A stretch of DNA of 64,000 bases from positions 1,433,583 through 1,497,582 of the forward strand of contig JYIP02000002.1 of assembly GCA_001051155.2 (NCBI GenBank), in the 5' to 3' direction. This stretch comes from Chrysoporthe austroafricana. Taxonomy: Eukaryota; Ascomycota; Sordariomycetes; Diaporthales; Cryphonectriaceae. The translations under genes and the position numbers were made by a program. Each line of letters starts with the position of its first letter. Within the stretch, counting starts at the first letter, position 1. Below the pieces are notes generated by a model that was not told the origin of the DNA, did no database searches, and worked only from the letters and a program-made list of their open reading frames with translations. Below, one piece after another: positions 21,454 to 24,774 of this stretch.

Positions 21454-22760
21454 ATGAGTGGTGCGCCGCGGTCCGACTTCCGGCGATGGCTTTCCGCGGA
21501 GGAGCTTGCCGCCAGAGGCATGCGAGAGACGGACACGGCTGTGGCGCATACGGAAAAGGTGCTCAGGGCCAGTCCCTTCTTGGCCGCGAAGCGTGAGCAG
21601 CTCGAGAAGCGGGCCCGGGAGCCGTTTCGGGGGGTGACAAGTGACGGTCCGTTCCTACCCCGTCTCAGGCACGTGTGGACCCTAACAAGGACAACGTCGA
21701 AGGGGAGGTCATTCCGGACCTTTACGGTATAGGGGACGATAGCTTCGACATAGAACGAGCTGTGGCGGCTGGGACCCGCATCCTCCAGCAGTGCAGCGAG
21801 GACGACCGGAGCAAGATCCTGCGGCCGCTGGACTCGCCTGAGAGACGCTCCTGGTTGAACCCAGAACTCTATTTCTTTCGCTATGGCCTCCGGCTCGACG
21901 AGATCCAGGAGCCTCTGCGGGATGCTATACTCGCACTCGTCGAGGCTACTCTATCAGCTGAGGGCTACGACAAGGCCTTGACCGCCATGCGTGTAAACCA
22001 TTTCCTCGGGGAGCTCTGCAATCTACCCCTGGTGCTCAACCAACACTCGTACAACTTTGTCCTGTTCGGAGATCCCTCGGCCCACGATCCCTGGGGCTGG
22101 ATGCTCTCCGGACACCACCTCTGCCTGAGCGCCTTCATGCGCAAGTCGCAGATCATCATCTCGCCGACCTTCACGGGCGCGGAACCAAACATCATCGACG
22201 ACGGCCCCTTTCAAGGCACAACGATAATGACTCCAGAACAGGATCTCGGCTTCGCGTTCATGCGCCGTCTGCCCGCCAGCATGCAAGAGAAGGCCCAGGT
22301 CTTCAAGACAATGGGGCCGCCCGAGGTTCCGGAATCGCGATGGGACCCAGCTGACCAGAGGCACTTGTGCGGGGCCTTCCAGGACAACCGCATCGTCCCG
22401 TACGAGGGCGTATGTCTGGCAGGGCTGTTGGGCGAGGGGGGAGATCCAGCGGCGGTCGACTTATTGATGGAAGTCGTGGGGCAATTCCACTTGTACCTGC
22501 CCGCCACGGCGAGACGGAACCGGCTGGAGCAATCGAGGAGGCATATCAAGGACACGTACTTCTGCTGGATCGGTGGGTTCGAAGAGGGCGATGCGTTCTA
22601 CTACCGCATACAGAGCCCCGTCATCGTGTGCGAGTTTGACCATCACGCCGGGGTCTTCTTGACCAACGAGGAGCCTGCGCGATTCCACATACACACTATC
22701 ACACGCATGCCTAACGGTGGTGACTATGGGTTCGCTATCTTGGATCAGCTTGGAGAATAG
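21454..22760 (+). CDS. DUF3500-family protein
   Basis: Two exons (21454-21633 and 21690-22760) give 416 residues. The 56 nt intron (GTGACA donor, CCCTAACAAG acceptor) joins EPFRG to DNVEGEVIPDLYGIG, matching the PF-x-G-x(4)-G-x-V-x-P-x-LY start of DUF3500 proteins. Later family landmarks are RSWLNPELYFFRYGLRLDE, HSYNFVLFGDPSAHDPWGW, LSGHHLCLS, FTGAEPN, DTYFCWIGG and VIVCEFDHHAGVFL near the C-terminus. DUF3500 proteins occur in bacteria and fungi and have no established reaction; the conserved His-rich segments suggest an enzyme. No signal peptide is visible with this start. An in-frame ATG at 21370 would add 28 residues, but MSGAPRSDFRRWL is the more natural start. Confidence 0.88.
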
Positions 22761-23354
22761 GTGGTCTGTCGGCATCACTCGATGCTGCTGGCAAGGGCTC
22801 TTCGAAAGATATGAGATGGGGTGGGCGCAATGGGTCTGCGATCTCGAGTAATATCGAATCAGACCTCTGACAGCTACAATAGTCACCTCTCAAGACGGTA
22901 TCCCAAGTTTGAACTCTCCAGGTCTTGTTTCGTTGTGAGGCATCGCATATAGTATAACGCATGTAATATATCGTATATCCACACAAAAGCTAAGCTCGAG
23001 CGCCTCGGGCGATGTCGGAGAAGCAGGCCAAGTCATCTCCTCGATCATTCTTGAACGGCGTCCTCGAGAGGCATAGGACATTAGGCCGGCCTTTCTACAT
23101 ATGAATATCATGCATTCAATTTCCGATTATTGGGTTTATAGTAACCTTATGTGCACCAACCCTTAGCAAAGTCTTATCGACCATCCGATTTCTATTTTTC
23201 CTCGCCTAGAAGACGAGCACAAAAAAGCAGACAAGAAAATTGCTACCGCTGGCGACCGCTTGTTTTCCACTCACCGTATATTGACCGACTCGCGATGCCC
23301 CTAGCGGACCCACAACGAACAAAAAGAATGCAATTTTCAACTACATTCGCAGTG
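22761..23354. other. AT-rich intergenic region
   Basis: Downstream of the DUF3500 gene and of the tRNA terminator. No coding sequence is recognisable. This is the start of the gene-poor stretch that runs to about 36.3 kb. Confidence 0.5.
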
Positions 23355-23358
23355 AAAA
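23355..23358 (-). terminator. Pol III terminator of the tRNA-Pro gene
   Basis: A run of four T on the minus strand directly follows the discriminator base. This is the minimal Pol III stop signal. Confidence 0.65.
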
Positions 23359-23502
23359 GGGTCTTGCCGCGGATTGAACGCGGGACCTCTCGCAATGATG
23401 AATAGGGTTGTCCCTAAGCGAGAATCATACCTGGATGTTGTTAGAATTGTTTTACGTTTTCATTGCGAGATGTTCGAGTACCTACCACTAGACCACAAGA
23501 CC
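23359..23502 (-). tRNA. tRNA-Pro(AGG) gene with two interruptions
   Basis: Read on the minus strand, the 5' acceptor strand GGTCTTG (23502-23496) pairs perfectly with CAAGACC (23366-23360), followed by discriminator C at 23359. The T-arm is CCGCG-TTCAATC-CGCGG (B box). The anticodon stem is CTCGC/GCGAG around loop TTAGGGT, anticodon AGG at 23415-23413. A 17 nt intron (23411-23395) sits between positions 37 and 38, and its CCCT can pair with AGGG of the anticodon loop, as in normal fungal pre-tRNAs. The D-arm, however, is split by 55 nt (23485-23431). Without both inserts the sequence is a standard 72 nt tRNA-Pro. Four T residues (23358-23355) follow as a Pol III stop. Whether it is functional depends on how the D-loop insert is handled; a pseudogene is the alternative. 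Confidence 0.85.
23431..23485 (-). other. 55 nt D-loop interruption resembling a spliceosomal intron
   Basis: The element begins GTAGGT and ends CATCCAG, with TTCTAAC placing the branch A about 10 nt from the acceptor. Its size is typical of mRNA introns in this window (53-80 nt). It divides TCTAGTG from GTATGATT; exact joining restores the D-arm of a standard tRNA-Pro. Its ends could be shifted by one G. It also contains an 11 nt stretch (23470-23460) perfectly complementary to the 3' anticodon-stem strand plus the end of the 37/38 intron (23398-23388). Confidence 0.75.
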
Positions 23503-24774
23503 AGTCAACTTTTAATGACGCCCAGCCAAGAAAAATCTTATTATTAGAACCGGGGATAGGCCTGTCGCATCTCCAATTCCTATCAAGCCCAAACTAAAAA
23601 TATGAGGGCTAAAAATAGGCCTATGGAATATACTTTCTAGCAATTAAAGTTGGTTCTCACTAGAAATCTGGCAGGGCTGCTGCCTTGCTCTCTTCTCTTC
23701 AATGCACCAAATTGCAAAGATTTCTCCTCGCCTATAACAACACCCTTACGTATGACATAGTATATTACAGCCATCCGAACTAGATAATGCATTTCCAAAG
23801 CTGTGTGAGAGATTGCGTGTACTATGTGCCATGTTGTGCATCTCGTGGTATCCCTCGGCTGACGTCTTGTGATTGGCGGGTTCAGTGTATTTACTCCCTG
23901 ATAAATACTGCGGAGATCACACCATTAGGCTCGAAGATCAAGCAATTTCAAAGTTGTTGAGATGTCTTCGTGGCATGATGAGCAATTGGCGGTGGACATA
24001 AACCGTTATGCGGGCTTAGGGTACGCGTCAGTGAATCATGAGCCACTTTGTCTGCACAAGCAATTACAAGCATTTTCTTGCAAAGTTACTTGGTACATCT
24101 TCGCACATATTTTCTACAACAGCATTTGATCTGTTATATAAATAGCTCATAGCTTTGGGTGGAAGTGATATTTTATCTAAGCAGTGGAATATCGAATATT
24201 ATGCGCTTATAGAGCAGTTGGTCCAAAGCAGACTACAAGCGAATACACTATTCAACACATGGCTTTATAGCGTAATCTTGATAGCGGAAAATGAATTCCC
24301 TCCCGTATTTATGTGTAGACTATGCTGGCATAATAATATATATCAATGAACCTCGACATGAGTCCTTGGGAAAGGGAGCAGATAAGGGGCCCACCAGCTG
24401 TTCCACATGCCACGGTCTAGAACCTGTGCTTATCATGAGATCAAGGAGGCACAACTGTAAATGATTGCAAGCGAGCGATCTTCATGTCTATCACTTGTCC
24501 CTCCGCACGCCGAAGTACCTGCTGTGCCACCCCGGGGGACTGTTACCGCCCGCTTTAAGACCAAGGCACCTTCTCCTGGTGACGCGGAATTCAGGAACTT
24601 GGCTTGATATATGGAAGATAGGACTTCTAGGTCGATATGTAGGTATGTTGGTATCACAGAAAATATAAGGACTTTAGAACGCCAAGCACTTCGTCAAGTG
24701 CACCTATGCCCAGGTCCCCCAACGCCAAACAGCGAAGACAATTAACAATAGGCCAATCATCAAAGTCTCTAGCA
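23503..24774. other. AT-rich intergenic region
   Basis: About 1.3 kb without a recognisable gene. Short open frames occur but none resembles a known protein. It should contain the upstream region of the tRNA gene and the 3' UTR of the membrane-protein gene. Confidence 0.5.

Follow-up and report, generated by a model that had tools for sequence, protein, structure and literature searches.

A putative spliceosomal-type intron in the D-loop of a nuclear tRNA-Pro(AGG) gene of Chrysoporthe austroafricana

We identified a tRNA-Pro(AGG) gene of Chrysoporthe austroafricana whose D-loop is interrupted by a 55-nt insert in addition to an ordinary 37/38 tRNA intron; judging from its letters, this nuclear tRNA gene very probably harbours a genuine spliceosomal-type intron. 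The whole gene, insert included, occupies positions 23502–23359 on the minus strand of the window (the complete 64,000-nt stretch of contig JYIP02000002.1 that was analysed). The best overall explanation, to which we give an even chance, is that a tRNA gene was hit by an intron and that its transcripts are spliced by the spliceosome and then by the tRNA endonuclease.

Read along the minus strand, the locus consists of GGTCTTGTGGTCTAGTG, the insert (GTAGGT...TTCTAACAACATCCAG), GTATGATTCTCGCTTAGGG, the 17-nt 37/38 intron, TGCGAGAGGTCCCGCGTTCAATCCGCGGCAAGACCC and TTTT. Exon 1 (23486–23502) comprises the 5′ strands of the acceptor stem and D-stem and the D-loop up to G18, with the same letters as the paralogues on contigs C1 and C17. 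The insert (23431–23485; GTAGGT...CTAAC...CAG) lies between G18 and G19 and is missing in all three paralogues described below. Exon 2 (23412–23430; G19–G37) carries the remaining D-arm, the 5′ strand of the anticodon stem and the anticodon AGG, and is followed by the 37/38 intron (23395–23411) and by exon 3 (23359–23394), which runs from T38 through the 3′ strand of the anticodon stem, the variable loop, the T-arm and the 3′ strand of the acceptor stem to the discriminator C. The parts read by the original prediction (acceptor stem, T-arm, AGG, 37/38 intron, discriminator C, TTTT) were thus present on the minus strand, and exact excision of the 55 nt, which it had claimed to restore a standard 72-nt tRNA, indeed leaves a tRNA-Pro gene of 89 nt, built like the three paralogues and with a mature part of 72 nt. 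Five excision registers, each shifted by one base, give this same product because a 4-nt GGTA overlap is present at both junctions; one of the five has GT...AG ends. G18 and G19 (the numbering of the cut site is our own assignment) are the D-loop bases that touch the T-loop, and an insert cutting between them means that an unspliced product could not be a normal tRNA.

All features of a Pol III tRNA gene were present: A box, B box, acceptor stem, T-arm and, immediately 3′ of the gene, a terminator-like TTTT (23355–23358, minus strand). The A box TGGTCTAGTGG (23485–23495, minus strand) takes its final G from the first base of the insert, and the B box (23371–23379, minus strand) reads GTTCAATCC, against GTTCGATCC in the paralogues. 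The insert widens the A–B box spacing to 116, versus 61–62 without it; TFIIIC tolerates such spacing. Within the gene, we found no sense-strand run of three or more T that could end Pol III transcription early. ARAGORN reported no tRNA over the window, Rfam gave no match over the window at gathering thresholds, and at E ≤ 10 over positions 23300–23560 Rfam returned no tRNA match and a single chance snoRNA match; this silence is expected because the D-arm is split. The intergenic surroundings are AT-rich (45% GC). The neighbouring gene, at window positions 21675–22760, encodes a DUF3500 protein with its best match in Cryphonectria parasitica (79% identity), which probably puts the host within that species' family or close to it.

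We then scored the insert against a model built from 31 non-overlapping candidate host introns found in 264 kb (the window and 20 adjoining stretches). Candidates were required to join open frames and to carry GTRNGT, CTRAC and YAG, with a length of 42–126 nt and a branch distance of 6–35 allowed in the scan; the set is small, was picked by the same signals that were later scored, and is partly chance, a control scan with the reversed branch motif giving 12 candidates versus 49 (before overlaps were merged). The insert, which lies outside the training set, scored 23.8, at least as high as 20 of the 31 leave-one-out scores of the host candidates. Its 5′ splice site GTAGGT fits GTRNGT (partial score 8.5), its branch motif TTCTAAC fits CTRAC and its 3′ splice site CAG fits YAG, and its length of 55 nt falls within the 50–117 nt of the 31 candidates. 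The predicted branch-point A (23441, minus strand) lies 10 from the 3′ end of the insert, a distance that compares with 6–35 among the host candidates (22/31 at 10–18) and with the 6–36 nt from the intron 3′ end given for fungal branch motifs in the available text of a fungal U3 survey (PMC5832005). At intron lengths of 45–100 nt, 26 of 3514 GTRNG sites, the insert included, scored 23.7 or higher. Open frames were joined at 15 of these 26 versus 519 of the 3378 sites scoring 0 or higher, a comparison that is not independent since the training introns are included; the insert is among the 11 of 26 that have no joined-frame support. The lack of TTTT in the insert is uninformative, as TTTT occurs in one of the 14 host candidate introns of 70 nt or less. 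Taken together, the host-intron score upholds the original prediction that the 55 nt carry spliceosomal-type signals, and we regard it as highly likely that the insert is a spliceosomal-type intron sequence.

The same genome contains a U6 snRNA gene that appears to be split in a comparable manner. The best U6 match (60.7 bits) lies on contig C17 at about 1874398–1874567 (G000:C17; L099 about 1436–1605), and the 5′ part of this profile match is aligned to letters that are not U6. The layout of the locus is a 5′ part ending GAAACGATAC, a 64-nt segment GTGAGT...CACTAACAGTTGTCACAG, and then AGAGAAGATTAGCATGGCCCC with a T-run. The U6 intron scored 24.5 in the same model that gave 23.8 for the tRNA insert; both are GT–AG introns with a CTAAC branch motif (distance 12 in U6), whereas they differ in length (64 nt versus 55 nt), and the U6 intron contains a B-box-like GTTCGAGTC as a feature of its own. 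The split U6 locus was absent from the genome matches of the tRNA locus query. The C17 locus was the only complete U6 among the matches listed (the best 47 of 2770 first-look candidates scored), and the contiguous U6 junction (25 nt) had 0 matches at ≤ 3 mismatches in the genome, the assembly of which may be incomplete. Two further U6-like sequences are probably pseudogenes: one (L100 1501–1598) has diverged and is without part of the conserved block, and the other (L101 1501–1557) is missing its 5′ end. The cell cannot do without U6, which Pol III normally makes, and the split gene therefore indicates that at least one Pol III transcript is very probably spliced in this host. We consider U6 to be, probably, one Pol III transcript that the host already splices, which makes splicing of Pol III transcripts plausible in this organism. 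Intron insertion into U6 in fungi is reportedly the subject of an earlier paper. Among other structured RNA genes, the sole SRP RNA match aligned over its full length and showed no long insert, the one U3 match spanned 273 nt for 274 model positions, and 24 5S matches spanned 113–137 nt; the U3 and 5S results are spans, and the U6 case shows that an intron may be present despite a normal one.

These observations are consistent with the following pathway. A U2-type spliceosomal intron would have landed in the D-loop of a Pol III tRNA-Pro(AGG) gene; Pol III would transcribe it from the intact A and B boxes to TTTT, and the spliceosome would take out the 55-nt intron in the usual way, through the branch point. 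Loss of this intron would free the anticodon arm, the tRNA endonuclease would then cut out the 37/38 intron, and ligation and trimming would yield a normal tRNA-Pro for use in translation. Chances seem about equal either way that at least some transcripts are spliced to a usable tRNA; that the two machines act in turn on one nuclear tRNA precursor, spliceosome before tRNA endonuclease, we propose more tentatively, at somewhat under an even chance.

Predicted folding bears on the order of these steps. The unspliced precursor had a minimum free energy of −40.3, versus −32.7 for the forced cloverleaf, so that a non-cloverleaf fold is favoured by a predicted 7.6 kcal/mol; without the insert, the corresponding values were −31.4 and −28.9. 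Within the insert, TCTCGCAATGA (23460–23470, minus strand) is predicted to pair in the precursor with TCATTGCGAGA (23388–23398, minus strand), to which it is perfectly complementary and which runs from the end of the 37/38 intron into the 3′ strand of the anticodon stem, thereby covering the 37/38 3′ splice site; as a match, the segment is statistically weak. When the ensemble was computed for the precursor including leader and TTTT, the branch region came out mostly unpaired (0.88) and the 5′ splice site less so (0.67), while the 37/38 3′ splice site was fully paired (0.0). If the RNA folds in this way, the D-loop intron would need to leave first, and its pairing with the 37/38 3′ splice region may thus fix the order of removal.

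We searched the genome (48.15 Mb, 22 contigs) for paralogues and found three intact tRNA-Pro(AGG) genes (contigs C1, C17 and C19), each with a 37/38 intron of 17–18 nt and without a D-loop insert. The exons of the split gene differ from those of C1 and C17 at 1 of 72 positions (position 57, A for G) and from those of C19 at five, four of which make up a paired change in the acceptor stem. At tRNA position 57, A and G are both usual. The 37/38 intron of the split gene is closest to that of C19 (16/17 identical), and a comparison of up to 200 nt of flank at E ≤ 0.1 revealed no similarity between loci except a single match of 10 nt, downstream of both the C17 gene and the window copy. The dissimilar flanks and differing 37/38 introns indicate that the split locus has not been copied recently from any one of the three paralogues, and its exons have been conserved. 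The genome-wide tRNA count scored 63 of 1207 candidates and listed 55, with the tRNA-Pro(AGG) genes outside that listing, and ARAGORN, run on the fetched tRNA loci, is blind to D-loop introns of this size and silent on further cases. A weak, end-truncated tRNA-like sequence (37.3 bits) was also seen on contig C3 at 632636–632701 (G000:C3; L085 about 237–302); it is possibly a tRNA-derived element or a foreign tRNA.

Two other origins of the gene were rejected. A retrocopied tRNA is contradicted by the 3′ side, where no encoded CCA or A-tail follows the gene but CCC and then TTTT. A chimera of two tRNA genes does not fit the 5′ side: the original prediction had warned that a 5′ half from a different tRNA gene would turn the intron reading into an artefact, and this was not borne out among the host tRNAs fetched, where the best match of exon 1 together with the opening 25 nt of the insert was to tRNA-Pro. 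The composite index of repeat-induced mutation was negative in 400-nt windows across the gene.

The strongest competing reading, which we consider a serious possibility at roughly one chance in three, is that the locus is a dead or dying copy: a spliceosomal-type intron entered the gene, its Pol III transcripts are left unspliced or degraded, and the three intact genes suffice. With three intact synonymous genes, the split copy would be dispensable, and this redundancy, one mark of a pseudogene, also supplies half of what the original prediction had named as making the locus a pseudogene, namely several intact genes elsewhere together with no spliced or mature product. The predicted misfolding of the precursor points the same way, as does a general expectation in the available part of a review (PMC4090602), according to which such insertions lie mostly in one of many synonymous genes and are supposed to mark pseudogenes. 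Against this, no decay of exons or promoter boxes, a second pseudogene mark, was seen: exons, boxes and terminator are almost unchanged, and the sole exon change in 72 positions versus C1 and C17 falls where A and G are both tolerated. Furthermore, the host seems capable of splicing a Pol III transcript. The intact exons nevertheless weigh little, because a very recent insertion would also leave them intact; a fresh insertion into a good gene looks identical to a maintained, spliced one. Unchanged exons may be kept by selection or by gene conversion, and the age of the insert is not given by them.

We judged it improbable that the insert is filler DNA, left by a repair event with GGTA microhomology and carrying splice-like signals by chance. 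The 4-nt junction overlap would agree with such an event, as would the A-rich composition (42% A, where the host candidates averaged 22% and reached at most 39%, n = 31), which is unlike these candidate introns and also counts against the spliced reading, but lies in intergenic surroundings that are themselves AT-rich. No related genome copy was found either: a 146-nt query at E ≤ 10, in a search that skips very common words, gave 6 matches, which were the locus itself and pieces of the three tRNA-Pro genes. The 11-nt inverted match of the insert to its own gene, equalled in 18 of 50,000 shuffles (33 of 20,000 with gaps allowed, against the four tRNA-Pro genes), could hint at a template switch; however, against 60 host tRNAs on both strands, it was equalled in 29 of 400 shuffles, and because of this unremarkable result we rejected the match as a signal of origin and kept the pairing as a hint only. 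For the same reason, chance was judged to explain a gapped alignment (score 22) between the 5′ part of the insert and the intron regions of two host tRNAs (L072, L078). Against filler DNA stands the intron score itself, which was reached by 0 of 200,000 mononucleotide shuffles (one register) and by two of the 527,670 genomic 55-mers taken from both strands, of which the insert is one. With respect to the three options of the original prediction, its view of the insert as intron-like therefore stood on the host-intron score, whereas a mobile intron-like element is left without support, since no related family was seen at E ≤ 10.

It appears very unlikely that the insert is a tRNA-type intron at an ectopic site, excised by the tRNA endonuclease at a bulge-helix-bulge in the manner of archaea and Cyanidioschyzon merolae. 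D-loop examples are reported in the portions available of PMC4090602 and PMC3978253; here, a canonical 4-bp helix with 3-nt bulges reached at most 2 of 4 pairs in the five registers (a test that is uninformative, as the host's own 37/38 intron fails it too and relaxed scans score alike), and the full set of spliceosomal signals would be left unexplained. Least likely of all is an assembly or sequencing artefact, which the single-copy state of the locus would allow but which is opposed by the complete host-like intron grammar and by the finding of no other genomic source for the insert.

The reading of a spliceosomal-type intron in a tRNA gene can be compared with several known systems. Bhattacharya et al. 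(2000) reportedly described spliceosomal introns in ascomycete rDNA, which would likewise be mRNA-type introns in a structural RNA gene, there rRNA and here tRNA. As far as the available text of the 2017 fungal U3 survey goes, introns are known to be frequent in just two small structured RNAs, U3 and U6, and U3 copies with and without an intron stand side by side in eight genomes (PMC5832005). The introns in fungal U6 and U3 share with the tRNA-Pro insert a short GT–AG form, a branch motif, YAG and a location in small structured RNA genes (PMC5832005, same portion); unlike those cases, the gene concerned encodes a tRNA, has an endonuclease intron as well and belongs to a set of four synonymous genes. 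Ectopic introns in the tRNAs of C. merolae, nucleomorphs and archaea likewise occupy non-canonical positions, including the D-loop, beside 37/38. The same excerpts of PMC4090602 and PMC3978253 ascribe the C. merolae and archaeal introns to the tRNA endonuclease and BHB motifs, and describe those of the Guillardia theta nucleomorph as 3–24 nt long with an unknown mechanism; in contrast to all of these, the signals of the tRNA-Pro insert are spliceosomal. No spliceosomal intron in a nuclear tRNA gene was announced in open-access titles and abstract beginnings (preprints excluded), and none was described in the available parts of PMC2586383, PMC11782384, PMC4494063 and PMC8393795.

Spliceosomal introns are already known in fungal U6, U3 and rRNA genes, and the tRNA case would add to these. 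If the intron is spliced, the spliceosome can handle a tRNA precursor whose first exon measures 17 nt and is preceded by a leader that is presumably short and uncapped, and the locus would offer a natural example of the ordered action of two nuclear splicing systems. If it is unspliced, it would still record the landing of introns in untranslated Pol III genes and would bear on intron gain.
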